Part shown: piece by piece, positions 41 through 19,904 of the stretch
Position numbering within the stretch: position 1 is the first letter of the stretch
Layout: the number at the start of each line of letters is the position of its first letter
Translations under genes and position numbers: made by a program
Assembly: GCA_021817985.1 (NCBI GenBank)
Contig: JAKAFK010000037.1
Coordinates: 1-35,749 of the forward strand
Reading direction: 5' to 3'
Length of the DNA: 35,749 nt
Origin: Pseudomonadota bacterium
Lineage (GTDB): Bacteria; Pseudomonadota; Gammaproteobacteria; Burkholderiales; JAKAFK01
Notes under the pieces: model-generated
Databases searched by the model: none
The model's input: only the letters and a program-made list of their open reading frames with translations
What the model was told of the DNA's origin: nothing

Positions 41-256
41 CCCTGCCTCAATACGAATGGCCTAAAGGATACTGTATCGTGGGCTTATACGCCCGCCGCT
101 ACCCATTCAAAATTCAACAGAGGCCTTTATTTCAGATCCACGCGCACTTCCACAACCGCGAGTCGCCCCCCATTGTTTCACCGCGACTCATCTGCACGCG
201 GTGCAGTATCGCCCAACAAAAGTGCCGGTGGATCGCGATTCAGTGCAAGCGCCAAC

Positions 257-592
257 ACCATTGACCGACTCAAGCCTATGTTGCGAGGCTGGATGAGCTA
301 CTTCCGGTTGACGGAGGTAAAGGGGGTGTTGCAGGATCTGGACGGGTGGATCAGGCGCCGACCGCGCTGCCTGCTATGGCAGCATGGAAAGCGCGTGTTC
401 GCCCGCGCCAGGATGCTGATGAAGCGGGGGCTAACGGAAGAACGGGCATGGCGCTCCGCCACGAACCAACGCGGGGCGTGGTGGAACTCGGGCGCAAGTC
501 ACATGAACGAAGCCTTCCCAAAGTCCTACTTCGACCACTTGGGGCTGGTCTCGCTGGCAGATACTTGCCGGCGCTTCCAGTGTGTTTCGTGA
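257..592 (+). pseudogene. ltrA: group II intron reverse transcriptase/maturase, C-terminal remnant
   Basis: The frame ending with TGA at 592 encodes the C-terminal maturase (X/thumb) portion of a bacterial LtrA-type protein. Recognisable pieces are TIDRLKPMLRGWMSYFRL, then WIRRRPRCLLW, then GLTEERAWRSATNQRG, and the typical C-terminus KSYFDHLGLVSL. The reverse-transcriptase palm with its YADD motif is absent; sequence before about 257 is not recognisable maturase, so the gene has lost its 5' three quarters. It is followed directly by the intron's own domain V and VI RNA, which confirms the identity. It cannot encode a working reverse transcriptase, but the RNA could in principle recombine with the 5' intron piece at 4042. 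Confidence 0.8.
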
Positions 593-736: not shown

Positions 737-1120
737 TCAGCGCCACAGATTCAGCTGATCCAGTCGCGCGTCTTCCTGCTCCTGGTTCCGGATATACTCT
801 CGTATCGTCGCTTCGTCTCTGCCTACCGTGGATACGAAGTACCCCCTCGCCCAGAAATGCTGCCCGACAAAACCTCGCTTGCGCTCGCCATACACCCGCG
901 CCAGGTGGATCGCACTTCTCCCCTTGATGTACCCGATTACCTGCGACACCGCATATTTCGGCGGGATCGCGATCATCATATGCACATGATCCGGCATCAG
1001 GTGTCCTTCCTCGATGCGGCTCTCCTTGCGCTCCGCAAGCTGTCGAAACAGCTCCCCGAGGTGCCTCCTCAACTCTTCGTACAACGCCAGCAGGATCGCA
1101 CCGCTCAAATCGTTCAGCAA
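737..1120 (-). pseudogene. tnpA: IS200/IS605-family transposase TnpA, 5'-truncated
   Basis: The product carries the HUH motif of Y1 transposases in HLMPDHVHMMIAIP, the conserved IKGRSAIHLAR segment, FWARGYFVSTVG with the region of the catalytic tyrosine, and the C-terminal IREYIRNQEQED. Full-length relatives are about 140-150 residues and begin with a strand containing a HVVF-PKYR motif. Here that N-terminus is missing: homology starts at LYEELRRHLGE (around position 1085) and the first residues of the 127-residue frame read across a junction into an ISL3 transposase fragment on the opposite strand. The catalytic core remains but the first beta strand is gone, so it is probably inactive. Confidence 0.8.
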
Positions 1121-1370
1121 GACGTTACGCAGTCACGCCGAGGGCATCTGCAACTATGCGGCCTACCCGATCACGAGCGCCGTCATCGAAGCGGGCAATG
1201 TCGGCATTGGTTTGATCCGCAAACGGGCCAGGGGGCTACTGGACACCGAATACTTCAAACTCAAGATCAGACAGCTCAATCTGCCCGACACGGCCGAGCC
1301 CTTCTACCCATTACGCGGGCCGGGCTGCCGTAGCAAAAAAGCCCCGGAAAGCAACAAAGCTACCGTATGA
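1098..1370 (+). pseudogene. ISL3-like transposase, C-terminal fragment
   Basis: From about 1098 the frame reads APLKSFSKTLRSHAEGICNY, then EAGNVGIGLIRKRARG and EYFKLKIRQLNLPD, ending with TGA at 1370. This is the C-terminal end of the DDE domain of ISL3-family transposases, including the region of the last catalytic acidic residue (the E in IEAGN). Everything upstream is IS200-like sequence in the other orientation, so the fragment is created by a recombination junction near 1090-1100. The 83 residues cannot function alone. Confidence 0.7.
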
Positions 1371-1891: not shown

Positions 1892-3283
1892 ATGAAGCAA
1901 CGAATTACTAAGTGGTCAATTGCTGCCACATCGGCGGCGACTCTCGCCGCATTGGGATTCTCGGGACAGGCACATGCCGTGCCGAGCTTTGCGAGGCAAA
2001 CGGGCCTCGCCTGCTCGGCTTGCCACACGGTGTTTCCTGAGTTGACACCCCTAGGTCGCCGTTTCAAGCTGCAAGGCTATACGTGGACAACTAAGGCGGC
2101 GGCTGCTGCTGCCGTCAATGAGCAGACGGGCGACACGGTTCTGTCCTTGGCAAGCATTCCACCCATAACGCTTCTCCTGCAAGCCAGTGTGACACACTGG
2201 GCGAAGGCCCCCAACCCGGGGACTCACACCCAGAACCAGAACACCTATTTTCCACAGCAATTCAGCATCCTGTCAGCCGGTCGCGTGGCGCCCAATCTTG
2301 GCGCCTGGCTTCAGTTTACCTATTTCCAGCAAACGGGAACCTTCGGCATCGATAATAGCGACATCCGCTATGTCAGTGGTCTCTCACACCCCAACGATTT
2401 TCTTTGGGGCTTGGACGTGAACAACGGACCCACGGTTCAGGATGTGTGGAACACGGGTGGTTCGATCGCAGGAGGTACGGCTTGGGGGATTCCTTATTTC
2501 CCGGTTCCGAATGCGATCGCGGCGCCACAAAATCCAATGATGCTGACTATCCTCCAGCAGTCCGTGGGAGCGGGAGCCTATCTCTGGTATAAGAATGCAT
2601 TCTATGCCGAGCTGCAAGGGTATAGAGAGGCGAAAAACATTGCCACCGCGAATGATCACAATATAGGAGTCGGTGGTGGCACCCTTGATCAAACAGCTCC
2701 ATACTGGCGCCTTGGGTATGAACATGACTGGGGGAAGAATTCCTGGCAAGTTGGCACCCTGGGCATGTACGCACACTTTACGCCCGGTGCGGCGGCTTCA
2801 CTGTCGCAGACGAATATCTACCGCGATATGGGTCTCGACACGCAATATGAATACATCGGCGACAACAACATCTATACGGTAGAAGCCAGCTACATGAACG
2901 AGCATCAAGATCACGATAGCTCGCTGGTCGGGCCGGGGCTGACCTACAGCAATTCGAGCGATACCCTTAATCGCTTCGAAGTGACGGGCAGTTATTATTA
3001 TCAGCGGCATTACGGTGGCTTCGTAAGTTTTACGTCGGAAACCGGCTCAAACGACGCAAATGCCTATTGCGGAGGAGTCGTGGGTAGCTGCAATGGTTCC
3101 CCGAAAGCCCAATGGGAGACGTTCGAAGTCGATTATTTGCCATACCTAAATACCAAACTGTTCCTGCAATATGATCTCTATAACAAGTTGGACAGCAATG
3201 CGAATGCATTCGCCGGAGCGGAATCGAGCCCCAGTGTGTCAGACAACAACCTCACCGTCGCTGGACTGTGGATGGCCTTCTGA
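1892..3283 (+). CDS. Cyc2-like outer-membrane monohaem cytochrome-porin
   Basis: The 463-residue protein has a Sec signal peptide (positive MKQR, hydrophobic core, cleavage after QAHA at about residue 29), then the segment VPSFARQTG followed by C41-S-A-C44-H45, a single c-type haem site, then ELTPLGRRFKLQGY. The remaining 400 residues are rich in aromatic, Gly, Ser and Asn residues in alternating strands and end in F, as in outer-membrane beta barrels. This haem plus barrel architecture and the FARQTG-CxxCH-P-LTP-GR-FKL-GY pattern match Cyc2, the outer-membrane electron acceptor of Fe(II) oxidisers, and related uncharacterised porin-cytochromes. The start at 1892 is chosen because AAGGGG lies just before it and the signal peptide begins there; the frame stays open to 1781. 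A c4-type cytochrome follows 13 bases downstream. The electron donor cannot be proved from sequence. Confidence 0.75.
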   Translation: MKQRITKWSIAATSAATLAALGFSGQAHAVPSFARQTGLACSACHTVFPELTPLGRRFKLQGYTWTTKAAAAAAVNEQTGDTVLSLASIPPITLLLQASVTHWAKAPNPGTHTQNQNTYFPQQFSILSAGRVAPNLGAWLQFTYFQQTGTFGIDNSDIRYVSGLSHPNDFLWGLDVNNGPTVQDVWNTGGSIAGGTAWGIPYFPVPNAIAAPQNPMMLTILQQSVGAGAYLWYKNAFYAELQGYREAKNIATANDHNIGVGGGTLDQTAPYWRLGYEHDWGKNSWQVGTLGMYAHFTPGAAASLSQTNIYRDMGLDTQYEYIGDNNIYTVEASYMNEHQDHDSSLVGPGLTYSNSSDTLNRFEVTGSYYYQRHYGGFVSFTSETGSNDANAYCGGVVGSCNGSPKAQWETFEVDYLPYLNTKLFLQYDLYNKLDSNANAFAGAESSPSVSDNNLTVAGLWMAF

Positions 3284-3296
3284 GGAGAGATCAGAG

Positions 3297-3968
3297 ATGG
3301 AATTCAATAGCATGAAACTCAAAAAGCCGAACCTTGGTCTGGCCTCTCCCGTATGGGCCCTTGTCTTTGCCGCCCTCATGTCGCAGGTTGGGGGTAACGT
3401 TGCGTTAGCGGGCCAACCAGGGAATGTGGCTGCACCCCGGATCGCTGAGACGCTATGCATCAACTGTCATGGCGCGCAAGGTCGTAATGATTCGTTGCTC
3501 TACCCGCAGCTGGCAGGGCAACCGGCATCCTACCTGGAGGCGCAACTAGTGGCGTTTAAAGATCGGACACGCGCAGACCCCCAAGCCCAGGTGTACATGT
3601 GGGGGTTCGCGGGTGGTCTAAGCGACAGCGCCATCAAGGAGCTGGCTGCCTATTATGCCGCTCAGACACCGGCTGCGGGTACGCCCCAGACAGCTGACCC
3701 ACGGGAAATCGCTGCAGGCAAGAAAATATTCATCGAAGGCATTCCTTCAGAGAACGTCCCGGCTTGTTTTGCGTGCCATGGAGAGGAAGCGCAGGGCAAA
3801 GCAACGTTCCCCCGCCTTGCGGGACAGCACCGTGACTACCTGGTCGACCAACTGCAGCATTTTAAGGATGGGCGAAGGTCCAACGCCATCATGCACAATA
3901 TCGTCAGGAACATGACAGACGAAGAGTTTGTGTCGGTCTCGGCGTACTTGGAGTCTCTTGGAAAGTAG
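3297..3968 (+). CDS. di-haem c4-type cytochrome (Cyc1-like)
   Basis: The 223-residue periplasmic protein starts 13 bases after the porin-cytochrome gene with a ribosome binding site (GAGGAGAG). A signal or anchor helix (about residues 15-38, ending VALAG) is followed by two tandem cytochrome c domains with haem sites CINCHG (C54) and CFACHG (C157). Both halves share the c4 pattern YPQLAGQ..YL..QL..F.DG/R. Likely methionine axial ligands are in QVYMWGF and NAIMHNI or RNMTDEE. In Acidithiobacillus ferrooxidans a c4-type di-haem cytochrome (Cyc1) is encoded beside cyc2 and carries electrons from the outer membrane to the oxidase; the adjacency here suggests the same job. No rusticyanin or cytochrome oxidase genes follow, because the operon ends at a terminator. 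Confidence 0.85.
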   Translation: MEFNSMKLKKPNLGLASPVWALVFAALMSQVGGNVALAGQPGNVAAPRIAETLCINCHGAQGRNDSLLYPQLAGQPASYLEAQLVAFKDRTRADPQAQVYMWGFAGGLSDSAIKELAAYYAAQTPAAGTPQTADPREIAAGKKIFIEGIPSENVPACFACHGEEAQGKATFPRLAGQHRDYLVDQLQHFKDGRRSNAIMHNIVRNMTDEEFVSVSAYLESLGK

Positions 3969-4005: not shown

Positions 4006-4036
4006 ACGAAAAAGGGGGGCACTGCCTCCCTTTTTA
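4006..4036 (+). terminator. Rho-independent terminator of the cytochrome operon
   Basis: An A-rich, G-rich arm (AAAAAGGGGGGC) pairs with GCCTCCCTTTTT across a 3-base ACT loop, with one G-T pair, and the second arm runs into a T-rich tract (TTTTTATTTG). It lies about 40 bases after the di-haem cytochrome stop codon. A group II intron 5' end begins about 6 bases further on. Confidence 0.8.
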
Positions 4037-4041
4037 TTTGG

Positions 4042-4380
4042 GTGCGCCAGGCATGGCGCGTAGCGCCGTGACTGGCTCTGTCGGAACCGCTGTGGTGGCG
4101 GGGAAGACGACTTGGAGGTGGAAGTCCTCTACACCCCCGGCAAGGGGAAGTGTTAGCCGAACGGCAAGGGTGTCCGTCGTGAGTCGGAATCTGAAGGAAG
4201 CCGCAGGCAAAAGCTGGCCTGACGGCGAGGCAAGCGGATAGAGGCGGCGTAGCGGGGTGAGCAGGCCCATATCTGTAAAGCCCGATACTTGCACGGAACG
4301 CTACGACGTAAGTCCGACAGGCATAAGCAGGAAGGTCGCGCGCATTACCCTGGGAGATCTGTTCTCCTGCCTTGTGCTAC
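4042..4380 (+). ncRNA. group II intron 5' end (domain I), truncated
   Basis: The sequence begins GTGCGCCAGGC, the GUGYG-type 5' splice end of group II introns, and continues with typical domain I pieces: GGAGGTGGAAGTCCTC, AAGTGTTAGCCGAACGGCAA, GGAATCTGAAGGAAGCCG and, later, GTAAGTCCGACAGGCATAAG and CCTGGGAGATCTG. Similarity stops at about 4380, where an IS3-family fragment begins, so domains II-VI and the maturase are missing. The boundary sits immediately after a terminator hairpin, the type of site preferred by bacterial class C introns, though the class was not established here. Small ORFs inside this stretch are not real genes. Confidence 0.7.
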
Positions 4381-4390
4381 CGGCATCGCC

Positions 4391-4564
4391 TATAAAAGGG
4401 GGCCCTGGAAGAACAGGGAATCAGTGGAGTTGGCGACCCTGGAATGGGTGTCCTGGTTCAACCATCAACGCCTGCTGGGGCCCATCGGCTATATACCGCC
4501 CGCAGAAGCTGAGGCACAATACTACCGGCAGTTAGCCAAGGCGGAGACTGCCAATGTTACTTAA
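4391..4564 (+). pseudogene. IS3-family transposase OrfB, C-terminal fragment
   Basis: From 4391 the frame reads YKRGPWKNRESVELATLEWV, then SWFNHQRLLGPIGYIPPAEA, and ends with TAA at 4564. This is the C-terminal end of an IS3-family integrase-type transposase, downstream of the last catalytic glutamate. The 5' boundary coincides with the end of the group II intron fragment, so one element has truncated the other. It is followed by the element's right inverted repeat. Confidence 0.85.
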
Positions 4565-4570
4565 ACCAAA

Positions 4571-4598
4571 CAGCCTCCACGAAATCCGGGGCGATTCA
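4571..4598. repeat. IS3-family right inverted repeat
   Basis: The stretch CAGCCTCCACG...GGGGCGATTCA lies just after the OrfB stop codon. Its complement starts TGAATCGCCCCGG, the usual form of terminal repeats in this IS3 subgroup (TGAACCGCCCCGG). It fixes the end of the IS at 4598, which matters for the chrA start: any ATG before this point belongs to the IS. Confidence 0.65.
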
Positions 4599-4631
4599 CA
4601 GGCAAATCGGCACCCAAAGGCGGACGCAAGA

Positions 4632-5888
4632 ATGCGAAGCAACGGGATGGCGCCTAAGCAAGCGCAAGACCCGGCGACCCGCACAGTAGGGATGCCGCGG
4701 CAGGGGCCTGCGGTCTTTGCCGTCCTGGGCGTATTCCTCATCTTCCTCAGGCTGGGCCTGACCTCCTTTGGCGGCCCCATCGCCCATCTGGGCTATCTGC
4801 GCAGCGAATTCGTCGAGCGGCGCAAGTGGCTGGAGGACGCCGCCTATGTCGACCTGGTGGCCCTCTGCCAGTTTCTGCCGGGACCGGCGAGCAGCCAGGT
4901 AGGCATTGCCCTGGGCGCGCTGCGTGCCGGGCTGCCGGGTGCTGTGGCCGCGTGGGTCGGTTTCACGCTGCCTTCGGCCGCCATCATGATCGCCTTCGCC
5001 TACGGCCTGCGCTTCCTGCCGGACGCCTCCGCCGCCGGCTGGCTGCACGGCCTCAAGCTGGCCGCCGTCGCGGTGGTCGCCCAGGCGGTATGGAGCATGG
5101 GCCGGCAGTTTTGCCGCGACCGCGTGCGGGCATCCTTTGCCATGCTTGCCGCCGTCGCTGTCCTGCTGTGGACTTCCGCGTTGGCCCAAATGGCGGTCAT
5201 TGCCCTGGGTGCGCTTATCGGCCGGCGCCTGCTGCCGGCCGCACAGGCCGATGATGCGGCCCACGCCGATTTCCGCATCAGCCGCCGGATTTCCACTCTG
5301 GCATGGCTGCTGTTCTTTGCCCTGCTCGCGCTGTTGCCGCTATGGGCCGCCCTGAGCGGCAGCCACGCTCTGGCACTATTCGACAGCTTCTACCGTTCTG
5401 GTGCGCTGGTCTTTGGCGGCGGCCACGTGGTGCTGCCGCTGCTGCGCGCGCAGGTGGTACCGGCGGGTTGGGTGTCCGATAGTGATTTTCTCGCCGGCTA
5501 CGGCATGGCCCAGGCCTTGCCCGGCCCTTTGTTCAGCTTCGCCGCCTACTTGGGCGCCGTGAGCAGCGGCACCCCTCATGGCTGGATCGGAGGACTGCTG
5601 GCGCTGGGGGCGATATTCCTGCCCGCCTTTCTGCTGGTGCTGGGCGCGCTGCCGCACTGGAACCAATGGCGCACCCGGCCCGCCCTGCGCTCGGCGCTGG
5701 GCGGTGTGAACGCCGCGGTCGTGGGCATACTGCTCGCCGCCCTGTACAACCCGATCTTCCTCAGCGCGGTACGCGGCCCCGGCGACCTCGCCCTGGCGCT
5801 GGCGGCGTTTGCGCTGCTCATGTTCTGGAAGATCTCGCCCCTGTGGGTGGTGGTTTTCGCGGCGCTGGGCGGGGCCTGGCTGGCATGA
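4632..5888 (+). CDS. chrA: chromate transporter ChrA (CHR family)
   Basis: The protein has the duplicated CHR architecture: the first half carries FLRLGLTSFGGPIAHLGYLR and CQFLPGPASSQV, the second carries SGALVFGGGHVVLPLLR and AQALPGPLFSFAAYLG. About ten hydrophobic membrane segments are visible. Family members export chromate from the cytoplasm. The frame is open from 4554, but that ATG lies inside the IS3 end, so 4632 (MRSNGMAPK) or 4692 (MPRQGPAV) is the better start; conserved sequence begins near GPAVFAVLG. The stop overlaps the start of the next gene by ATGA, so the two are translationally coupled. The IS3 insertion has removed whatever native upstream region existed. Confidence 0.9.
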   Translation: MRSNGMAPKQAQDPATRTVGMPRQGPAVFAVLGVFLIFLRLGLTSFGGPIAHLGYLRSEFVERRKWLEDAAYVDLVALCQFLPGPASSQVGIALGALRAGLPGAVAAWVGFTLPSAAIMIAFAYGLRFLPDASAAGWLHGLKLAAVAVVAQAVWSMGRQFCRDRVRASFAMLAAVAVLLWTSALAQMAVIALGALIGRRLLPAAQADDAAHADFRISRRISTLAWLLFFALLALLPLWAALSGSHALALFDSFYRSGALVFGGGHVVLPLLRAQVVPAGWVSDSDFLAGYGMAQALPGPLFSFAAYLGAVSSGTPHGWIGGLLALGAIFLPAFLLVLGALPHWNQWRTRPALRSALGGVNAAVVGILLAALYNPIFLSAVRGPGDLALALAAFALLMFWKISPLWVVVFAALGGAWLA

Positions 5889-7215: not shown

Positions 7216-7476
7216 ATGCAAACCATGAATATTTCCCTGCCTGATCCCTTGAAGCGGTTCGTGGACGGGCAGATCGCCCAAGGTCGTTACAGCAGCGTCA
7301 GCGAATATGTGCGGGAACTCATCCGGGCCGATGAGAGACGCAAGGCCGAAGAAGATCTGGAAGCGAAGCTCTTGGAAGGCCTGAACAGCCCGGAGACCGA
7401 GCTGACGCCGGCGGATTGGGCCCGCATCCGCAAGGAAGCCTTGACCAGGCTTGAAGCTCACAAGAAGCCCCGTTGA
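7216..7476 (+). CDS. parD: ParD-like antitoxin
   Basis: The 86-residue protein begins with a ribbon-helix-helix DNA-binding domain (MNISLPDPLKRFVDGQIAQG, then YSSVSEYVRELIR), followed by an acidic linker (AEEDLEAKLLEGLNSPETELT) that would bind the toxin and ends WARIRKEALTRLEAHKKPR. This is the CC2985/ParD family layout. A ribosome binding site (AGGAAGGAGG) precedes the start. The stop codon overlaps the next start (TGATG), typical of type II toxin-antitoxin pairs. The N-terminal domain normally represses the operon. Confidence 0.9.
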   Translation: MQTMNISLPDPLKRFVDGQIAQGRYSSVSEYVRELIRADERRKAEEDLEAKLLEGLNSPETELTPADWARIRKEALTRLEAHKKPR

Positions 7477-7796
7477 TGCCGAAGGTCTACCAGCGCGCGG
7501 CAGCCAGGAGCGACTTGGTGGAACAGTTCGTCTATCTGGCGGAAAACGCTGGGCTGGCGGTAGCTAACCGCTTCATGGCGCAGGCCGAAGAGACTTTTGC
7601 TGAACTGGCGCACGAGCCGCTGATCGGTGCGCCGCTGCAACTGACGCATCCTCGTCTGGAGAAGCTGCGCAAGTGGCGCATCAAGGGTTTTGACAATCAT
7701 CTGGTGTTTTATGAGCCGCACCCGGATGGTGTATCCATCGTGCGCGTGCTGCATGCGGCCCGGGACTGGTGGGGCCTGCTCGGCTTCGAAGGCTAA
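7476..7796 (+). CDS. parE: ParE/RelE-superfamily toxin
   Basis: The 106-residue protein has the ParE layout: an N-terminal strand PKVYQRAAARSDL, two helices (LVEQFVYLAENAGLAVANRF and AEETFAELAHEP), then strands WRIKGFDNHLVFYEPHPDGV and VSIVRVLHAARDW. ParE toxins usually poison gyrase; RelE toxins cleave mRNA, and the sequence alone favours ParE by its partner type. It starts one base inside the antitoxin stop codon; a TTG one codon upstream is less likely. A perfect hairpin follows at 7810-7826. Confidence 0.9.
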   Translation: MPKVYQRAAARSDLVEQFVYLAENAGLAVANRFMAQAEETFAELAHEPLIGAPLQLTHPRLEKLRKWRIKGFDNHLVFYEPHPDGVSIVRVLHAARDWWGLLGFEG

Positions 7797-9230: not shown

Positions 9231-9409
9231 ACTGCGCGTGCCGTATTCGGATTCGCGGGAACTTGTCATGAACGTCGTCCAATTCAGGCCAGATGGAGGT
9301 TGTGGTGCGGAAATTACTCAGAGAGGCTGTCAAATCCCTGCATGGCTCGGCGGCAAGCCAGTATCGGCGTCGGAAGGTGGCGGGCTCAGGATTTGGGAAC
9401 GACGTCTGA
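9196..9409 (+). pseudogene. WYL-domain transcriptional regulator, C-terminal remnant
   Basis: From 9196 one phase reads NSLARLGDGRYELRVPYSDS, then RELVMNVVQFRPD, which matches the end of WYL-domain regulators (pattern DGRYEL.VPYSDSRELVMDIL.FGPD). At about 9292 the match moves to another phase, MEVVVRKLLREAVKSL, ending at TGA 9409. So the gene has lost its 5' part and carries a frameshift. WYL-type regulators are common just upstream of cas3 in type I-E loci, so this is likely the decayed native regulator. The cas3 start lies 14 bases further on. Confidence 0.65.
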
Positions 9410-9422
9410 TACAGAGCTACCG

Positions 9423-12119
9423 GTGACCAACGTTTCGGAGAACCATCTGAAGCCATTGTGGGCCAAATCCTGCCAACTAGGCAGCGAGCACTGGCATCCT
9501 CTTGTCCTGCATTTGCTGGATGTCGCGGCCTGCGCCGATGCCATCCTTGCGCGCGAGCCGGAAAGCACGCGCCACCGGCTCGCGGCGGTGTTGGGTTTGC
9601 CTTGGGAGGTGGCCCATCCGTGGTTGCTGTTGCTGATCGCCTGCCACGACCTAGGCAAAGGCTGCCCAGGGTTTCAGTGCAAGTGGAAAAATCTGTCCGG
9701 CCTGGACGCTGGGCCAAGCCCGGATACCACAGTCAATCACGGGTTCGTCAGCCAGGTGGAATTAAGGAAATTACTGATCGAACTCGGCTGGCCTGAGGAA
9801 ACGGCAGGGTTGGTCGCCGATGCGGTGGGCTGTCATCACGGCGAGCGCGCAAGTTCTACGACGATCGAGAGAATCGAGGCCAATCCATTCCGGAGCACAC
9901 TTGGCAAACCCGACTGGCATCGTGCTCGGCGCGCCATTTTCGAAGCCTTGATCGCGGTCTTCGCTCCCACCTCGTCGCCGACCAAGCGCGCGTTGAGCGG
10001 TCCCGATTTCATGTTGCTTGCGGGCCTCACCAGTTTCGCCGACTGGATCGGCTCGAATGAGGCGTTTTTCCCATTCGGCGCACCCGAGGACTGTGACGAT
10101 CTGGCTGCATGGTTCAATAAGCGACGCGAGCAGAATGCCGAGGAGGCGCTGAATCAAACCGCCTGGCTGCCGCGAACGCCTCTAATCAACTCCGCCAGCG
10201 CCTTCGGCGCCGTATTCGGCTTCAAGCCACGTCCGTTGCAGCAGGCGATGGTCGATGCGCTGGCTACCCTCGACCGACCCGCGATTCTGCTGGTTGAAGC
10301 GCCGATGGGCGAAGGCAAGACTGAAGCGGCACTTTACGCCCATCTGGAATTGCAGCGGCGGCTCGGGCATCGGGGACTCTACGTCGCGCTGCCGACCAAG
10401 GCGACCGGCAACGCCATGTTCAGCCGCGTTCTCAAGTTTTTGCGCAGCCAGCACTGCAACCGCCGGCTGGACCTGCAACTGTTGCACAGCGGCGCGCTGC
10501 TCAACGACGATTTCCAGAAGCTCAAACTCAACAGCATTTACGACGCCGCCCAAGGCGGCGAGGTGCGCGCCGGCGAATGGTTCACGCACAAGAAGCGCGC
10601 GCTGCTGTCGGAATATGGCGTCGGCACCATCGACCAAGCGCTTCTGACCATCCTGCCGGTGCGCCATCAGTTCGTGCGCCTGTGGGGGCTGGCGAACCGC
10701 GTCGTCGTGTTCGACGAAATCCACGCCTACGACGCCTACACCGGCACGCTGTTGCTGCACCTGCTGCGCTGGCTGCTGGCCCTAGACGCGTCGGTGGTCC
10801 TGCTATCGGCGACCTTGCCGCCACAGATTCGCCGCCAGCTCGCGGAACTGGTCGGCCAGCAGCCGCCGGAGCGCGAGGCCGCCTACCCGCGTATCTCGGT
10901 CTACCAGCCGGGCGAGGCCGTGCGTCAGTTGCCTTTCGACGCCGACCCTAAGCGCCGCCTGTCCATCCGCGTCGAGCCCGTCGCCGCCGACCTCGCCGCG
11001 ATCCAGGCCGCGTTCGACGCGAGGCTTGTCGATGGCGGCTACGCACTTGCGCTGACGAACACCGTGCAGCGCGCGCAGGATTTGTACCGGGATTACGGCG
11101 CGGGCGAGCCGCTGCGGATCGACGGCGAGCCAATAGGCAAGCGCCTGTCCGACAGCACGGAGGTCTATCTCTTCCACGCGCGCTTCCCCGCCGACGCCCG
11201 GCAACGCCGCGAAGACGCCGTACTGAAGCTCTTCGGCCCGCCCGATCCGGATGCGCCCGCCCCACGCATGGGCCGGAAAATTCTCATCGCCACCCAGGTC
11301 GCCGAGCAAAGCCTGGATCTCGACTTCGACCTCATCGCCACCGACCTCGCGCCCATCGACCTGCTTCTGCAACGCGCCGGGCGGCTTTGGCGGCACGCGC
11401 GCGGCGCGCGCCCCGTGAGCGAGCCAACCCTCATCGTCGCCGGACTCCTGGAAGACCCGCCGCCCACGTTCGGCAGGCCTTTGTGGTGGAGTGCCGTCTA
11501 TCGCGAAGACACGTTGCTCCGAACCCGCAGCCTGCTACGCGGCAAAGCATTTCTGCAACTGCCCGATGACATCGACTCGCTAGTGGCGTCCGTCTACGAG
11601 GAAGCTGCCGAAGTCGAAGCGTCGCTCGAAGGGCGGCTCGACCGCGCCATGCAGGATGCGTTAGGTAAGGAATACGCCCAAGTCGGCGAAGCACATCAGG
11701 CCATCATCGGCGTGCCCGACGACGCCTCGTGGAAAACTGGCGCGCGCTTCACGCTGTATGACGACGACGAACCCGGCGTCCACGCCAGCCTCAAGGTCCG
11801 AACACGGCTTGGCGAGGATTCCGTCGTCGCCGTTCCACTCTCCGATGCGGACGTCTTCGCTCCCGCGGTCACGCCCGAATTCGGCCAGGCCAAAACCTGG
11901 CTCCTGCGTGCCATGAGCCTGTCGCGCAAGGGCGTTGTCAAGCGGCTGCAAGCGCGCGGCGTACCGGAAGGCTGGCGGCAAAGCGCCTTGCTGCGCAATG
12001 CCTATCCGCTGCACCTCGATGCCGATTCCCGCTGGATCGAAGACCCCAAGGTTCAACTCTCCAGCGAGCTGGGCCTGATTTACGAAAACAAGGAGACCGA
12101 ATGCGTCAGTTCAACCTGA
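9423..12119 (+). CDS. cas3: Cas3 nuclease-helicase (type I-E)
   Basis: The 898-residue protein (GTG start at 9423) has an N-terminal HD nuclease domain with H..DVA (about residue 30), HDLGKG (about 74) and VGCHHGE (about 137), then a superfamily 2 helicase: Walker A EAPMGEGKTEAA (about 290), DEIH box VVVFDEIHAYD (about 430), VLLSATLP motif III, and ATQVAEQSLDLDFD with QRAGRLWRH motif VI. It unwinds and degrades DNA marked by Cascade. The frame is open from 9300, but residues before VTNVSENHLKPLWAKS are WYL-remnant sequence in another phase and conserved Cas3 begins there, so the GTG is preferred; no strong ribosome binding site is seen. It overlaps cas8e by 19 bases. All catalytic motifs look intact. 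Confidence 0.95.
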   Translation: MTNVSENHLKPLWAKSCQLGSEHWHPLVLHLLDVAACADAILAREPESTRHRLAAVLGLPWEVAHPWLLLLIACHDLGKGCPGFQCKWKNLSGLDAGPSPDTTVNHGFVSQVELRKLLIELGWPEETAGLVADAVGCHHGERASSTTIERIEANPFRSTLGKPDWHRARRAIFEALIAVFAPTSSPTKRALSGPDFMLLAGLTSFADWIGSNEAFFPFGAPEDCDDLAAWFNKRREQNAEEALNQTAWLPRTPLINSASAFGAVFGFKPRPLQQAMVDALATLDRPAILLVEAPMGEGKTEAALYAHLELQRRLGHRGLYVALPTKATGNAMFSRVLKFLRSQHCNRRLDLQLLHSGALLNDDFQKLKLNSIYDAAQGGEVRAGEWFTHKKRALLSEYGVGTIDQALLTILPVRHQFVRLWGLANRVVVFDEIHAYDAYTGTLLLHLLRWLLALDASVVLLSATLPPQIRRQLAELVGQQPPEREAAYPRISVYQPGEAVRQLPFDADPKRRLSIRVEPVAADLAAIQAAFDARLVDGGYALALTNTVQRAQDLYRDYGAGEPLRIDGEPIGKRLSDSTEVYLFHARFPADARQRREDAVLKLFGPPDPDAPAPRMGRKILIATQVAEQSLDLDFDLIATDLAPIDLLLQRAGRLWRHARGARPVSEPTLIVAGLLEDPPPTFGRPLWWSAVYREDTLLRTRSLLRGKAFLQLPDDIDSLVASVYEEAAEVEASLEGRLDRAMQDALGKEYAQVGEAHQAIIGVPDDASWKTGARFTLYDDDEPGVHASLKVRTRLGEDSVVAVPLSDADVFAPAVTPEFGQAKTWLLRAMSLSRKGVVKRLQARGVPEGWRQSALLRNAYPLHLDADSRWIEDPKVQLSSELGLIYENKETECVSST

Positions 12120-13681
12120 TCGACGAAGCCTGGATACCCGTTCGCAAACTCGATGGCGCGCGCGTCGAACTCGGCATCCGCGACACCTTGCTGCAAGCGA
12201 AAAACATCGCAGTGATCGAAGACGCCTCGCCGCTGGTTGTGGCCGCCCTGCATCGCTTCCTGCTCGCCGTGCTCTACCGTGTACTAGAAGGGCCGACGGA
12301 CATCGATCAGGCCAAAGCGTGGTTCAAGTGCGGGCTGCCGGCTGACAAGATCGATGCGTATCTTAACAATTGGCGGGATCGGTTCTGGCTGTTTGACAAG
12401 CAATATCCTTTCTTCCAGATTCCCGATTTCGAGCCCAAAACCTGGCGCGCGTGGACAGCGCTCGCCGCCGAGCACAACGCCGACAACGCCAAAGTGCTGT
12501 TCGACCACGTCGATGTCACGCGGCCTGACGCCGTCCCGCCGGCGGCTGCGACGCGCTGGCTGCTGGCGGCGCAAACCTTTTCCGTGAGCGCGGGGAAAAG
12601 CGAGCTGTCGCACACCGGCACCGCTCCATCGGCGACGGCGGCGATGGTCCTGCCGCTGGGCCGCCAGTTGGAAGACACCTTGCTGTTGAATCTCGTGCCG
12701 CAGAACCGTGCGGTGTGCGCGTGCGATCGGCCCATCTGGGAGCGCGATCCGGAGTCGGTGGCGAGCTTGAAGGCAGGTGCAAAACGCGTCATCGCAGGCT
12801 ACGCCGACCGCTACACCTGGCGCACGCGGTCGATCCGGATGCGTGGCGACGAAAACAGTCGCGTGCGCACGCTCGCCTTCGCCTCCGGCGTGGAGAACGC
12901 TTCGAAAGATGGCATCGACCCCATGCTCGGCTACCGCATCGACGACAAGAACGGCAAGCTACCAATCCTGTTCCACGAGCGCGGGCTGTGGCGTGACTTC
13001 GATTCTCTGCTGCCGGACGAGGCAAAGCTCGCGCCCGAAGTTATCGAGCACGCGACAGCATTGACACGCTTTGATCGCACGCGCTTTCCACGCTCTGTCA
13101 TGGTGCTGGGGCAGTCGAACAGCAAAGCCAAAATCGACTTCTGGCGCATGGAACGCTATGCGTTACCCGAGCGACTAGCCAGCGATGTCCATGCCCGAAG
13201 CGAGATACGACAATTGTTGAGCGACGCCGAACTATCTGAGAAATCATTGGATGCGGCGCTCAGAGACTGGGCCAAATCGATGATTACAAAAGGCGAGCGC
13301 GATCTACAGCCTGACAAATGGGCTAATGGGAAATGGATTCCAGGCGATGTCAGCAAAGTAATCGGCAAGATGTCACCGGATGCGCCTCCAGCGCCTGCCC
13401 TGATCTACTGGTCCACGCTCGAAGCCGCCTTCCACGAGGTTCTGCGCAGCTACACCGCCGAATCCGACCCCGACGCCATCCGCCTCTTCTGGCTGAAAAC
13501 CGTGCGCTCGACCCTGCGTGACGCTTGGCGGCGGCATGCGGCGTCCGTCTCGACCAGGGACGCCTGGGCCATCCGCGCGCTGGTGCATGCCGAAGCGCAG
13601 GTCAACAAGCGAGTCGGCGCGTTGAACAAGGAAATCCACGAGTACGAAACCTATCGCCAATCGCAGGAGGAACCAGCATGA
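12101..13681 (+). CDS. cas8e: Cas8e (Cse1/CasA), Cascade large subunit
   Basis: The 526-residue protein opens with MRQFNLIDEAWIPVRKLDG, the signature N-terminus of Cse1, and contains the conserved FWLFDKQYPFFQIP segment and a C-terminal helical bundle. In type I-E this subunit recognises the PAM and recruits Cas3. The length is close to E. coli CasA (about 500). Its ATG lies inside the last codons of cas3, and its stop overlaps the cas11 start by ATGA, so it sits in a tightly coupled operon. Confidence 0.95.
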   Translation: MRQFNLIDEAWIPVRKLDGARVELGIRDTLLQAKNIAVIEDASPLVVAALHRFLLAVLYRVLEGPTDIDQAKAWFKCGLPADKIDAYLNNWRDRFWLFDKQYPFFQIPDFEPKTWRAWTALAAEHNADNAKVLFDHVDVTRPDAVPPAAATRWLLAAQTFSVSAGKSELSHTGTAPSATAAMVLPLGRQLEDTLLLNLVPQNRAVCACDRPIWERDPESVASLKAGAKRVIAGYADRYTWRTRSIRMRGDENSRVRTLAFASGVENASKDGIDPMLGYRIDDKNGKLPILFHERGLWRDFDSLLPDEAKLAPEVIEHATALTRFDRTRFPRSVMVLGQSNSKAKIDFWRMERYALPERLASDVHARSEIRQLLSDAELSEKSLDAALRDWAKSMITKGERDLQPDKWANGKWIPGDVSKVIGKMSPDAPPAPALIYWSTLEAAFHEVLRSYTAESDPDAIRLFWLKTVRSTLRDAWRRHAASVSTRDAWAIRALVHAEAQVNKRVGALNKEIHEYETYRQSQEEPA

Positions 13682-14229
13682 GCGGATTCATCGCATGGCT
13701 GGAAGACATGAACGAGGGGGATACCAAGGTGCGCGCCGTGCTCCGGCACAGCCTCGCGTTCGACCCCGGCGCACACATCCCGGCCTTTCCCTACGTCGAG
13801 CCTTTCTTGAAAGGCGAGGCGGAAGGCTGGCGCAGACAGATGTACTACCTCGTCGCCAGTCTGTGGGCGGCGCACTGGCGCGAAGGCCGGGCTGACTCAA
13901 CAATCCAACTGGCAGTAGCGGTTGGGCGCTTAGATCTGGAGCGAAAAAAATCGCTGAGCGCGGACGACCGGCGTAAGCCCACTACCTCCACTAGTACCGA
14001 GAAGCGATTCATCACGCTTTTGGACGCGGATGAAGAGCAACTCCCGCACCGTCTGCGCCAGATGGTCGCGCTGCTGAACGAGCAGCCGCTCGACTTCCAG
14101 GCCTTGCTGAACGACTTGCTGTTCTGGAATTGCGACGACAAGCGCGTGCAGAACGCCTGGGCGCGCGATTTCTACCGCGCCATCAATCCCGCTGAAACCT
14201 TTGAAGCCGAAACGGAGACCGCCCAATGA
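13678..14229 (+). CDS. cas11: Cas11 (Cse2/CasB), Cascade small subunit
   Basis: The 183-residue helical protein starts at the ATGA overlap with cas8e after AGGAGGAACC; the longer frame from 13525 is a read-through of another phase. It shows the Cse2 pattern: LRHSLAFDPGAHIPAFPYVE, then a helix with YYLVASLWAAHW, then EKRFITLLDADEEQLPHRLR and LLNDLLFWNCDDKRVQNAWA with basic residues that contact the crRNA and target strand. Two copies are present per Cascade complex in E. coli. Its stop again overlaps the next start. Confidence 0.93.
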   Translation: MSGFIAWLEDMNEGDTKVRAVLRHSLAFDPGAHIPAFPYVEPFLKGEAEGWRRQMYYLVASLWAAHWREGRADSTIQLAVAVGRLDLERKKSLSADDRRKPTTSTSTEKRFITLLDADEEQLPHRLRQMVALLNEQPLDFQALLNDLLFWNCDDKRVQNAWARDFYRAINPAETFEAETETAQ

Positions 14230-15392
14230 AACAACTGATCGAGATTCACGTCCTACAGAACTTCGCGCCCTCCAACCTCAACCGCGACGACACCGGTGCG
14301 CCCAAGGACGCTTTCTTCGGCGGCACGCGTCGGGGGCGTGTGTCGAGCCAGTGCAACAAGCGCGCGGTCCGGCAGTATTTCGACGAAAAGATCCGTGAAG
14401 GCGTGTTCAGCCCAGACCAGCTCGCCGTGCGCACCAAGCGCGTCTATCAGGCAGTCGCCGATGCGCTCGACGGCAAGCGCGACCTGGCGGAAGCGCGCGC
14501 CAAGACCGAACGCGCACTGTCCTACGTCAAGCTCAAGGCGGCGGAAGGCGGCAAGACGCAATACCTTCTTTTCCTCGGTCGGCGGGAAATCGCGGCGCTG
14601 GCGCGCACCATCGACCAACATTGGGATTCGATCATCGAAGTCGAAGAGCCGCAGGCCGAAGACGGCGCGGGTAAGAAGAAAGCCAAAACGAAGAAGGACG
14701 CTGCGGGCAGCGCGCCTAAGGAGGTGAAAGACCAGATCGAAGCGATCTTCAACGGCGGAAAGGCGGTAGACGTGGCGCTATTCGGCCGCATGCTCGCCGA
14801 CATGCCCGAGAATAACCAGAACGCCGCCTGCCAGGTCGCACACGCAATCTCGACCCACGCGGTCGAGCGCGAATTCGACTTCTACACAGCGGTGGACGAC
14901 CTGAAGCCGCAAGATACGGCGGGCGCGGACATGATGGGTACGGTCGAATTCAACTCGGCATGCTATTACCGCTATGCGGCTGTAGATTGGGAAAAGTTGG
15001 TGGCGAACCTGCAGGGCGACGCCGATCTGGCGGCGAAAGGATTGCGCGTGTTCCTGCAAGGCTTCGTGCTCGCCGAACCCACCGGCAAGCAAAACAGCTT
15101 CGCCGCGCATAACCCGCCGGAATTCGTCGCCGTGACGGTATGCCGCGACGCGGCCCCGCGCAACCTCGCCAACGCCTTCGAAACCCCGATTCGTGCCAAG
15201 CCCGACGAGTCGCTGACACACAAGTCAGCAGAAGCGCTGGCGACCAAGGCGAGCATTCTCGACAAAGCCTATCCGCGCAAGGGAAAAACCTTCGTGCTCA
15301 ATCTCGCGCAGGCCCAGATTGGTGGCCTGGGCAGCGAACACGAATCGCTCGACGCGGTGCTCGATGGCGCACTCGCCGCCGTGCAGGAATAA
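14226..15392 (+). CDS. cas7e: Cas7e (Cse4/CasC), Cascade backbone
   Basis: The 388-residue protein begins IEIHVLQNFAPSNLNRDDTG and continues KDAFFGGTRRGRVSSQCNKR, the conserved crRNA-binding RAMP region of type I-E Cas7. Later segments include FDFYTAVDDL and the glycine-containing DMMGTVEFNSACYYRYAAVD. Around residues 140-165 there is a charged, Lys-rich insertion (EEPQAEDGAGKKKAKTKKD) that makes it about 25 residues longer than E. coli CasC; such insertions occur in other family members. Six copies polymerise along the crRNA. The start overlaps the cas11 stop (ATGA). Confidence 0.95.
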   Translation: MKQLIEIHVLQNFAPSNLNRDDTGAPKDAFFGGTRRGRVSSQCNKRAVRQYFDEKIREGVFSPDQLAVRTKRVYQAVADALDGKRDLAEARAKTERALSYVKLKAAEGGKTQYLLFLGRREIAALARTIDQHWDSIIEVEEPQAEDGAGKKKAKTKKDAAGSAPKEVKDQIEAIFNGGKAVDVALFGRMLADMPENNQNAACQVAHAISTHAVEREFDFYTAVDDLKPQDTAGADMMGTVEFNSACYYRYAAVDWEKLVANLQGDADLAAKGLRVFLQGFVLAEPTGKQNSFAAHNPPEFVAVTVCRDAAPRNLANAFETPIRAKPDESLTHKSAEALATKASILDKAYPRKGKTFVLNLAQAQIGGLGSEHESLDAVLDGALAAVQE

Positions 15393-15395
15393 GCC

Positions 15396-16091
15396 ATGCC
15401 GACACTGCTTTTGAGGCTGTCGGGGCCGATGCAGTCCTGGGGTACGACCAGCCGCTTTGACCAGCGCGACACCGGCAAGGAGCCGAGCAAGTCTGGCGTG
15501 ATCGGATTGCTGGCTGCCTCGCTCGGTATCGACCGCGAGGCATGGAATGAGGACTTGCAAGCGCTGGCCACGCTGACGATGGGCGTGCGCCATGACCGGT
15601 CCGGCGTACTGAAGCGTGATTACCAGACAGCGGGATGCGCCACAACTGACAGAATCAAACGCGCTGATGGAACGCTATCCGAGGACGGCGTGACATCGCA
15701 GCGTTACTATCTTGCCGACGCCGTGTACCTAGTCGGCCTGGAAGGTACGGATCGCGGCCTGCTCGAACGCGCGCACGCGGCCTTGCTGAACCCGGTCTGG
15801 CCGCTGGCTTTGGGGCGCAAGTCCTACGTGCCGGCTGAACCGGTCTGGCTGGAGGGCGGCGTCGTGGACGCGCCGCTGCGCTCCGCGCTCCGTCGGCCTT
15901 GGCTCGGAACGCCGCGACGTCACGAAACCGCACCAACTCAATTGCTCGTGTCGCTGGAGTCGCAGGACGGTAGCGGCGCGCTGCGCATGGATCAACCCCT
16001 GTCGTCGTTCGCCGAACGCCGCTTCGGCGCGCGCTATGTGCGTTCGGAGTGGGTGGCGCTGGAACTGGAGCCTAACGATGGTGCTGCATAG
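15396..16091 (+). CDS. cas5e: Cas5e (CasD)
   Basis: The 231-residue RAMP protein starts 3 bases after cas7e. The N-terminus LLLRLSGPMQSWGTTSRFDQ and the following PSKSGVIGLLAASLGIDR are characteristic of type I-E Cas5, which caps the 5' handle of crRNA. RYYLADAVYLVGLEG and NPVWPLALGRKSYVPAEPV are further family segments. It overlaps the cas6e start by 14 bases. Confidence 0.95.
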   Translation: MPTLLLRLSGPMQSWGTTSRFDQRDTGKEPSKSGVIGLLAASLGIDREAWNEDLQALATLTMGVRHDRSGVLKRDYQTAGCATTDRIKRADGTLSEDGVTSQRYYLADAVYLVGLEGTDRGLLERAHAALLNPVWPLALGRKSYVPAEPVWLEGGVVDAPLRSALRRPWLGTPRRHETAPTQLLVSLESQDGSGALRMDQPLSSFAERRFGARYVRSEWVALELEPNDGAA

Positions 16092-16770
16092 AGTTCACCT
16101 GAATCCACGCAGTAGGGATGCGCGGCGCGACCTTGCCGACCCCTACCAGATGCACGCGACTCTGTGCCGGGCGTTGTTCCCGCAGGAAACACCTTGCCTG
16201 CCGGGCGCGCTGTTGTGGCGGCTGGAGCCCGAGACCGATTCGCAAGACCGTCCGCGCGTGCTGATCCAGTCTCGGGCGGCACCGGATTGGTCACACCTGC
16301 ACGAATCCGGCTGGCTCGCCGAAGCCGAACCCGGCATCGACCTCGTGCAAAAACTCGCGCTCGGCTCGCTCGCCGCTGGCGAGACATTCCGCTTCCGCCT
16401 GCGCGCCAATCCATGCAAGACAGTGCAGGGCAAGCGCACCGGGCTGGTTCACCCCGACGCGCAGCGGGACTGGCTTGCGCGCAAGGGCGAACAGCATGGC
16501 TTTGCCCTGCCCGCCTCCGACCGGCCGGACTACTTCGACTTCGTCGAGAGCCCCAAGGGCCGAGCGTACCCAGATGTCCGGGTATCACAAGACCAGATGC
16601 TGACCGGGCGACGGCGCGACGGCGTCACGATCCGCGTATTCTCGGTGCTCTTCGATGGGCGGCTGAGGGTGAGCGATCCTGGTAAATTTAGAGCGACGCT
16701 CGAATCCGGGATCGGTCACGGCAAGGTCATGGGCCTGGGTTTGTTGTCTATTGCACCGTTGCGAACATGA
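16078..16770 (+). CDS. cas6e: Cas6e (CasE) CRISPR RNA endonuclease
   Basis: The 230-residue protein starts with ATG at 16078 inside the end of cas5e; the frame is open from 16036 but conserved sequence begins LHRVHLNPRSRDARRDLADP. The following YQMH places a histidine at residue 26, the position of the catalytic histidine of type I-E Cas6. The C-terminal glycine-rich loop GIGHGKVMGLGLLSIAP fits RNA-binding in Cas6 proteins. It cuts the array transcript at the base of each repeat hairpin (CCCCGC and GCGGGG arms here). An 83-base gap follows before the toxin-antitoxin pair, the longest gap within the cas cluster. Confidence 0.94.
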   Translation: MVLHRVHLNPRSRDARRDLADPYQMHATLCRALFPQETPCLPGALLWRLEPETDSQDRPRVLIQSRAAPDWSHLHESGWLAEAEPGIDLVQKLALGSLAAGETFRFRLRANPCKTVQGKRTGLVHPDAQRDWLARKGEQHGFALPASDRPDYFDFVESPKGRAYPDVRVSQDQMLTGRRRDGVTIRVFSVLFDGRLRVSDPGKFRATLESGIGHGKVMGLGLLSIAPLRT

Positions 16771-16792
16771 ATGCCGCTGGCCGCCTCTTCGC

Positions 16793-16835
16793 TTGCCTTG
16801 GCATTAGCGCAAGCCTAAACTGCATCACATATGCA
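16793..16835 (+). promoter_or_regulatory. candidate internal promoter and operator before the cas-embedded TA pair
   Basis: TTGCCT at 16793-16798 and TAAACT at 16816-16821 are separated by exactly 17 bases. Overlapping the end of the -10 element, bases 16821-16835 form an inverted repeat (TGCAT, loop CACAT, ATGCA), followed by a further TGCAT-like sequence. Ribbon-helix-helix antitoxins commonly bind such short palindromes at their own promoter. This would let the antitoxin, toxin, cas1 and cas2 be transcribed apart from the interference genes. Confidence 0.5.
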
Positions 16836-16853
16836 TTGCATTGAGGATCCCCC

Positions 16854-17129
16854 ATGAAAACTGCCACCCTGCCACCGTTGCGCGTCGATAGCGAACTGCG
16901 CGACGCCGCCGAATCGGTCTTGCGCGAGGGAGAGACACTTTCCGGCTTTGTTTTGGAAGCCGTCCGCCTGAATATCGAGCGGCGCGAGTCGCAACGCGAG
17001 TTCATCGTGCGCGGGCTGGCGGCGCGGGACGAGGCGCAAGCGAGCGGTAAGTACGTCAGCGCCGAGGACATGCTCGCCCGGCTCGATGCCTCCTTGGCCA
17101 AGGCGCGCGGCAAGCGGGCAGGTGCGTGA
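16854..17129 (+). CDS. ribbon-helix-helix-type antitoxin inside the cas operon
   Basis: The 91-residue protein has a short N-terminal strand (ATLPPLRVDSEL) followed by two helices (LRDAAESVLREGETLSGFVL and EAVRLNIERRESQREF), a ribbon-helix-helix layout similar to small YlcI/YnfO- or CopG-like antitoxins, then an extended C-terminus (SGKYVSAEDMLARLDASLAK) that would wrap the toxin. It follows cas6e by 83 bases, on the same strand. GAGGATCCCCC precedes the ATG. Its stop overlaps the GTG start of the toxin. It is not a known cas gene; it probably represses its own operon and neutralises the downstream toxin. Confidence 0.8.
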   Translation: MKTATLPPLRVDSELRDAAESVLREGETLSGFVLEAVRLNIERRESQREFIVRGLAARDEAQASGKYVSAEDMLARLDASLAKARGKRAGA

Positions 17130-17424
17130 GTTATCGGGTCCGGCTCGCGCCGCGCGCGGCCGACGATCTGCAGCGCTTGTTCGACTTTCTGGCCGAAACG
17201 GACTTGGCCGCGGCCAAACACGCGCGCGACACCATCGCCAAAGGCTTCGCCTTTCTGCAGAATTTTCCTTTCGCCTGCCGTAAGGCCGCACCCGAAACCC
17301 CGCTGATGCGCGAATTGCTGATCGAGTTTGGGCGGACAGGGTATGTCGCCCTGTTTGAAATCGAAAATGCGAGTACTGTAACAATCCTGACAGTGCGCCA
17401 TCAACGCGAGGACGACTATTACTG

Positions 17425-17425
<1 letters not shown>
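17126..17425 (+). CDS. ParE/RelE-superfamily toxin inside the cas operon
   Basis: The 99-residue protein starts with GTG (GTGAG overlap with the antitoxin stop) and shows the ParE fold pattern: strand SYRVRLAPRAADDLQRLFDF, helix DLAAAKHARDTIAKGFAFLQ, the LPFACRKA-like NFPFACRKAAPETPLMRELL segment, then strands GYVALFEIE and STVTILTVRHQREDDYY. The RHQRE-DDYY ending is common in this family. Its TGA stop overlaps the ATG of cas1 by one base (TGATG), so ribosomes finishing the toxin are placed at cas1. It differs in sequence from the ParE-like toxin at 7476. Whether the target is gyrase or mRNA cannot be decided. Confidence 0.85.
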
Positions 17426-18622
<1,197 letters not shown>

Positions 18623-18715: not shown

Positions 18716-19782
18716 GTGTTCCCCGCTCGCGCGGGGATGAACCGGGGCCGCGACAGGCGCGGCCGAGTCCTCCTATGTGTTCCCCGCTCGCGCGGGGATG
18801 AACCGATGAAGAATGGCACCATGGGCAGCCAGATCCCGTGTTCCCCGCTCGCGCGGGGATGAACCGGTTGTTGAAAGGTTAAGACGGCCGCAGATGCCGT
18901 GTTCCCCGCTCGCGCGGGGATGAACCGATGCGGAGCTGCGGCATATGCCCAACGGGGATGTGTTCCCCGCTCGCGCGGGGATGAACCGGAATGGATTCCT
19001 TAGGTCGGCCCTATTCGGTGCGTGTTCCCCGCTCGCGCGGGGATGAACCGGCCGTACCGTCTATGTCTCGGGCATTAATGATGTGTTCCCCGCTCGCGCG
19101 GGGATGAACCGAACCGTGCGCGGAGCTGACCACGGAGCAATGGGTGTTCCCCGCTCGCGCGGGGATGAACCGGACCACACCATGCTTGAAATCGAACAAA
19201 TTGGGTGTTCCCCGCTCGCGCGGGGATGAACCGCCAAGGTGTGGCATTACAGCGGCTACGCGGTTGTGTTCCCCGCTCGCGCGGGGATGAACCGCCATTG
19301 GAATGGGTGCGGCTCAACGCGCATGAGTGTTCCCCGCTCGCGCGGGGATGAACCGGCGCATCCGAACATCCGGCATGGCATCGGCCAGTGTTCCCCGCTC
19401 GCGCGGGGATGAACCGGACTTGATCGTGTCGCGAGAGTGACGGGGTTTGTGTTCCCCGCTCGCGCGGGGATGAACCGCCGTGTGGATGCTCGCGGCATAC
19501 GTGGCGATGGTGTTCCCCGCTCGCGCGGGGATGAACCGAGGACGATGACTCGGACCTCGACGGCGTCGACGTGTTCCCCGCTCGCGCGGGGATGAACCGC
19601 CGGAGGGAGGGGGCGCGGCTCCTGCCTCCGGGTGTTCCCCGCTCGCGCGGGGATGAACCGCGATGGGTCCAGCGCGAAGTCTGGGCCTGAAAGTGTTCCC
19701 CGCTCGCGCGGGGATGAACCGGCTTCTCGACGAAACTCGCCGGTCTGGTTGCGGTGTTCCCCGCTCGCGCGGGGATGAACCG
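18716..19782 (+). CRISPR. type I-E CRISPR array, 18 repeats and 17 spacers
   Basis: Eighteen identical 29-base repeats start GTGTTCCCCGC and end GGGGATGAACCG; the inner arms CCCCGC and GCGGGG pair around a TCGC loop. Repeat starts run from 18716 with a 61-base period to 19754, except one 62-base step. Spacers are 32 bases, apart from 33 bases for the spacer at 18989-19021. The direction (leader and cas2 at the left, ATGAACCG at the repeat end) matches E. coli. The last repeat is as perfect as the others and is followed by unrelated sequence, so the old end may have been trimmed. Minus-strand frames through the array encode a repeated RFIPARAGNT peptide and are artefacts. Confidence 0.99.
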
Positions 19783-19904
19783 CGTTGCGCTGCGCGAATT
19801 TCGCAACGGTGATGCGGTGGTGTTGGGTAACCCACTTCTGGTGTCCAGGCGTCCGAATCAGTTGGGTGTGACGTGGCGCCGGCGCAACGAATGGTGACCC
19901 GACA
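19783..19904. other. sequence flanking the distal end of the array
   Basis: No repeat or gene recognised. GTGTTGGGTAACC at 19820 shares only the first five bases with the repeat and is not a degenerate repeat. Confidence 0.4.

Follow-up and report, generated by a model that had tools for sequence, protein, structure and literature searches.

The rus operons of Acidithiobacillus, Acidiferrobacter and Acidihalobacter start with the gene of a fused haem-porin, Cyc2, followed by that of a Cyc1-type cytochrome c4 (PMC10654088). Acidithiobacillus also has stand-alone cyc2/cyc1 copies, some of them with flanking transposases (PMC10654088, Fig. 2d). In Ferrovum, which lacks rusticyanin, the gene of the c4 protein CytC-18 is located directly downstream of the Cyc2-like gene, and a HiPIP (HiPIP-41) was proposed as donor to c4 (PMC10879576, PMC4725956). 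Published Cyc2 trees point to extensive horizontal transfer (PMC12442345). Isolated cyc2 and cyc1 genes close to transposases, the rusticyanin-free pair and wide transfer of Cyc2 are already in the literature; added here are a new example of the known pair and the apparently recent arrival of a second Cyc2 in a host with one of its own.

The locus was found in a stretch of 35,749 nucleotides of a Burkholderiales genome (contig JAKAFK010000037.1), termed the window. It shares with the rus operons the fused haem-porin followed by a Cyc1-type c4, but no cup, coxBACD or rusticyanin gene was found behind the pair, which is thus not a rus operon, and its Cyc2 is 33-36% identical to rus-operon Cyc2 and near copies. 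As in the stand-alone copies of Acidithiobacillus, cyc2 and cyc1 lie alone near transposases, whereas the host is a different one, has a second cyc2-HiPIP locus and lacks rusticyanin. The c4 gene directly downstream of cyc2, the lack of rusticyanin and a HiPIP as candidate go-between are shared with Ferrovum; unlike there, the HiPIP genes are located elsewhere, beside the other cyc2 of the host, and an aa3-type oxidase is present as well. On plasmid pSBC1_3 of the soil bacterium Caballeronia sp. SBC1 (NZ_CP049159.1), cyc2 is likewise followed by a Cyc1-type c4 gene (loop ...RSYMW), but a HiPIP gene is adjacent (HiPIP, cyc2 and c4 in a row) and the Cyc2 is 37% identical. An earlier interpretation made from the letters of the window (the sequence-only reading) had used the rus operon as its model. 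That operon is not the only model: in this part of the family, cyc2-c4 pairs usually come without rusticyanin, and Ferrovum has such a pair too (PMC10879576).

The cyc2-c4 gene pair

The pair and the elements around it are listed below in the order of their window coordinates.

173..589, plus strand: C-terminal fragment of a group II intron maturase (GIIM)
592-663, after the GIIM fragment: intron domain V-like RNA
740..1120, minus strand: IS200-type Y1 transposase
1014..1367, plus strand: C-terminal fragment of an ISL3 transposase
1892..3283, plus strand: cyc2, fused mono-haem cytochrome and 16-strand porin of 463 aa (from ORF, motif, fold prediction and tree)
1976..2044, plus strand: Cyc2 signature AVPSFARQTGLACSACHTVFPEL, residues 29-51 (motif definition of PMC8406198)
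3297..3968, plus strand: cyc1-like di-haem cytochrome c4 of 223 aa with CINCH and CFACH (from PF00034, 1h1o match and trees)
4014..4029, plus strand: intrinsic-terminator-like hairpin, then CTTTTTATTT (consensus scan, fold z -2.5)
4173..4342, plus strand: fragment of a group II intron (D1-D4) that runs into an integrase-core fragment of IS3 type (frame 4289-4561)

The coordinates of the two-gene pair (1892-3968) given by the sequence-only reading were exact. The cyc2 frame starts with ATG at 1892 and stops with TGA at 3281-3283; the c4 frame starts with ATG at 3297, 13 nt further on and with its own ribosome-binding-like GGAG, and stops with TAG at 3966-3968. The two genes probably form one transcription unit. 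Downstream, the hairpin with its T run is present as claimed earlier, but it was called strong, and is better described as a real but modest terminator: terminator-like sites occurred in the consensus scan at about chance level (3 found, 2.3 expected in shuffled DNA).

Cyc2 proteins are marked by AXPXFAR[QK][TY] about 5 residues before CXXCH, with PXL 4 residues after it (PMC8406198). The window protein carries this motif in full, and it occurs once in the six frames of the window. The signal peptide ends near AHA-VPSF and is followed by the segment AVPSFARQTGLACSACHTVFPELTPLGRRFKLQGY. With 463 aa and a single N-terminal CXXCH (CSACH, residues 41-45), the protein agrees with the Cyc2 definition of at least 365 aa and one such motif. 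None of the Pfam and NCBIfam models covers it. A scan of named genomes yielded at least 586 confirmed stretches with Cyc2 relatives, of which 80 were kept. As relatives with E-values down to 1e-113 among the matches listed are found in many genomes, cyc2 is no chance open frame; the nearest relative among these matches is only about 48% identical.

The structure of the window Cyc2 was modelled with AlphaFold2 using 49 aligned family members (mean pLDDT 80, pTM 0.80). The predicted fold opens with a short, helical N-terminal region that holds the haem motif; a small hairpin and 16 strands follow, with the C-terminal strand last, so that the model has the C-terminal outer-membrane beta-barrel expected of Cyc2. 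Foldseek against the PDB returned general porins (OmpF, OmpC, Omp32 and OmpT; E about 1e-9 to 1e-7). Predicted barrel and porin matches together support the fused haem-porin architecture, as a prediction. In a tree of 129 proteins, calculated by a quick method with SH-aLRT support only, the window Cyc2 falls into a fully supported clade of four with L040 (a MAG titled Telmatospirillum), L041 and L086. The rus-operon Cyc2 sequences used as reference (G465, G477 and G360) are placed elsewhere in the same large group, and the short cluster-1-like proteins L024-L028 are far away. The Cyc2 identity proposed by the sequence-only reading is therefore borne out by the full motif, the predicted barrel and the tree; placement outside the Cyc2 clades, which it had named as speaking against it, did not occur.

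The c4 product matches Cytochrom_C (PF00034, E 5.5e-18). Its best PDB relative is Cyc1 of A. ferrooxidans (1h1o, E 2.6e-42), with ordinary c4 proteins well behind. The window c4 carries the Cyc1-type loop RADPQAQVYMW between its haem motifs. The [YF]MW ending of this loop, a mark derived in the present analysis (form RADPxAxxYMW), is found in 51 of 59 real cyc2-linked c4 proteins and is absent from the host's own c4. After removal of the false c4 rows L074a, L110 and L201, the cyc2-linked c4 proteins (59 rows including the window c4 and 1h1o) were split from canonical c4 at 100/99 support. Joining the window c4 to the c4 of the host was rejected (AU p 0.0004), which also rules out an unrelated housekeeping c4. 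From best match, loop, tree split and AU rejection, the protein is a Cyc1-type partner and no stray housekeeping cytochrome; two CXXCH motifs, the 1h1o match and the c4 tree confirm the earlier description of a di-haem c4 as in the rus operon. In the c4 tree, the window c4 is not placed with those of L040 and L041, and such a grouping was not rejected (p 0.106), so that joint inheritance of both genes with these two loci is neither shown nor rejected.

Among the 112 Cyc2 loci whose downstream sequence was long enough, 59 have a Cyc1-type c4 gene immediately after cyc2; two false rows were removed from this count, and the tblastn-found loci L079, L206 and L207 are included in it. The settings comprise rus operons, stand-alone second copies and soil Burkholderiaceae, and bearers include Paraburkholderia, Ralstonia pickettii, Trinickia, Rhodanobacter and Aromatoleum. 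The rus operons of G465 and G477 have the order cyc2, c4, cup, coxB, coxA ... rus, which is that given for Acidiferrobacter (PMC10654088), and each of these genomes also has a second, stand-alone cyc2-c4 pair. In L041, a clade-mate of the window Cyc2, coxB and coxA lie behind the pair. A further arrangement, cyc2-HiPIP-coxB-coxA, was seen at L077 2128-7737 (MAG BP6.bin38) and is possibly a complete rusticyanin-free unit.

Mobile setting and host genome

Broken elements lie on both sides of the pair, and the earlier phrase "set among mobile elements" is correct. The 3' part of a group II intron is found upstream (173-663) and a 5' part (D1-D4, 4173-4342) downstream, both on the plus strand; they may be one element split by rearrangement or two insertions. 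The GC content is 54% in cyc2 and 57% in c4, compared with 60-66% in eight other stretches of the host, and GC3 is 0.61-0.63 in the pair versus 0.79 in the host's cyc2 paralogue. Among the matches in G001, the sole congener compared (92% complete), there was no window-type Cyc2 and no Cyc1-type c4, and only weaker c4 matches of 36-41% identity were obtained. A recent horizontal gain is indicated by the low GC content of the pair, by the broken mobile elements that flank it and by its absence from one congener. Carriage by a virus or phage was considered and rejected, as no relative was found in IMG/VR or phage records, and a close plasmid copy of the pair (above 60% identity) was not found either.

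Several other features of mobile DNA were observed. The neighbouring cargo (window 4554-5888, 7216-7796 and 20601-21215) consists of a gene for a chromate transporter, a toxin-antitoxin pair of the ParD/ParE type and a serine recombinase resembling TniR; the recombinase is about 77-81% identical to resolvases of plasmid transposons. By ORF reading, window 9300-18506 and 18717-19835 hold a putative type I-E-like CRISPR-Cas system (Cas3, Cse1, Cse2, Cas7, Cas5, Cas6, Cas1), then a repeat array, whose region has matches on plasmids of Frigidibacter and Haematobacter. Outside the window, L231 and L233 contain a Cyc2-like gene (AIPAFAAQTGEPCSACH, with A replacing the R of the motif) together with a mono-haem c gene. 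Their 6.2-kb stretch is identical in a plasmid record of A. ferrooxidans YQ-N3 and in the conjugative Acidiphilium cryptum plasmid pACRY03, which reflects either a genuine transfer or an assembly made from a mixed culture.

The other Cyc2 of the host is encoded on contig C17, belongs to a different clade of the 129-protein tree than the window Cyc2, and is 93% identical to the Cyc2 of G001. Two HiPIP genes follow it, in the host as in G001. This second cyc2 is vertically inherited and older than the window copy, and the evidence favours the acquisition of an additional Cyc2 by a host already equipped with one over that of a new trait. At this older locus (L120 7531-7818, 8159-8560 and 9512-10855), a 172-aa gene accompanies the two HiPIP genes behind cyc2; G001 (L121) has the same order, with its second HiPIP in two frames, as if frameshifted.

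The HIPIP profile gave three matches over the cut-off in the host. The rusticyanin model TIGR03095 gave no match in the whole host genome, but did detect the protein in G305 and G360. An aa3-type oxidase is encoded on contig C44. Contigs C49 and C41 each encode another haem-copper protein; from their neighbour genes, these look like a probable cbb3-type oxidase and a nitric oxide reductase. Several RuBisCO matches were obtained. A decahaem route of the MtoA/PioA type was also considered and dropped, as the host yielded only two partial matches below the cut-off. With HiPIP, oxidase and RuBisCO genes, the components required for using electrons from Cyc2 are present elsewhere in the genome. The genome contains the rusticyanin-free, Ferrovum-like gene set, that is, cyc2 with a downstream c4, HiPIP and oxidase genes and no rusticyanin; judged from these genes, the corresponding electron route is a candidate in this host.

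These results also delimit earlier claims. The statement "no rusticyanin or oxidase" is right for the locus and, genome-wide, for rusticyanin, but wrong for the oxidase, given the aa3-type and the probable cbb3-type enzymes. The pair is a stand-alone module locally, but not in a genome with a second cyc2, two HiPIP genes and genes for oxidase and RuBisCO. The suggested search for the rest of a rus-type pathway came out negative for rusticyanin, and HiPIP and oxidase genes were found instead.

Function of the pair and alternative explanations

The pair most likely serves Fe(II) oxidation at the cell surface, feeding the oxidases of the host, and was probably gained recently by horizontal transfer, beside an older cyc2-HiPIP locus; a probability of roughly 0.6 is assigned to this reading. 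Cyc2 would form a 16-strand porin of the outer membrane, and its N-terminal mono-haem domain would take one electron from Fe(II) that is extracellular or enters the pore. The Cyc1-type c4 would move electrons across the periplasm, either directly or via a host HiPIP, considered as go-between because rusticyanin is absent from the host. The electrons would pass to the host's own oxidases and, uphill, to NADH for CO2 fixation. The pair would thus add to the vertically inherited cyc2-HiPIP locus of the same genome. We infer Fe(II) as the substrate, as well as the direction of flow, the partners and the expression of the pair.

Against the iron reading count the low identities of the window Cyc2, about 48% to its nearest relative and 33-36% to rus-operon Cyc2 and near copies. 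The wider distribution of the pair also stands against it: besides Caballeronia plasmids, the bearers include Paraburkholderia, Ralstonia, Trinickia and Rhodanobacter, genera not known to us as iron oxidisers. Together with the largely unverified function of the Cyc2 family, this occurrence is the main doubt on the role in Fe(II) oxidation; for much of Clusters 2 and 3, function was described as unverified (PMC8406198). The pair could then belong to a part of the family with another purpose, such as the use of other electron donors in dissolved or solid form, or the removal of Fe(II) without growth on it. Such a purpose may apply to the soil Burkholderiaceae and to Rhodanobacter. It is nevertheless rather doubtful here, since the rus-operon copies share the fused architecture and the neighbouring c4, and since RuBisCO and HiPIPs in the host are as expected of an iron-oxidising autotroph.

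It is less probable still that the pair is a recently landed passenger without a promoter of its own, silent or decaying. Broken mobile elements all around, a GC content still unlike that of the host and the failure to find a sigma-70-like promoter upstream on the plus strand would fit such a fate, whereas both frames are intact and have kept their signal sequences, and neither the haem motifs nor the residues conserved in Cyc2 have been lost; the gain may, however, be too recent for visible decay. An ordinary porin with superficial resemblance to Cyc2 beside an unrelated housekeeping c4, suggested by the lack of a Pfam or NCBIfam model naming the cyc2 product, is very improbable and contradicted by the full Cyc2 motif, the tree placement, the conserved gene pairing and a c4 which the c4 tree splits from the housekeeping kind.

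The known picture is not changed by this single locus. With regard to the spread of iron oxidation among bacteria, the window locus looks like a case in which the whole cyc2-cyc1 pair was gained by a genome with another Cyc2 already in place. A further idea is put forward tentatively and is itself unlikely: Cyc2 and Cyc1 might be a minimal, self-sufficient mobile cassette which plugs into any HiPIP and oxidase of the recipient, and which in this host supplemented an older cyc2-HiPIP system with a second Cyc2, perhaps working at another redox potential. If this is true, a single small transfer could give or retune Fe(II) oxidation. The pair of the window is a compact two-gene unit with which to ask if cyc2 and cyc1 alone link Fe(II) to a foreign respiratory chain.
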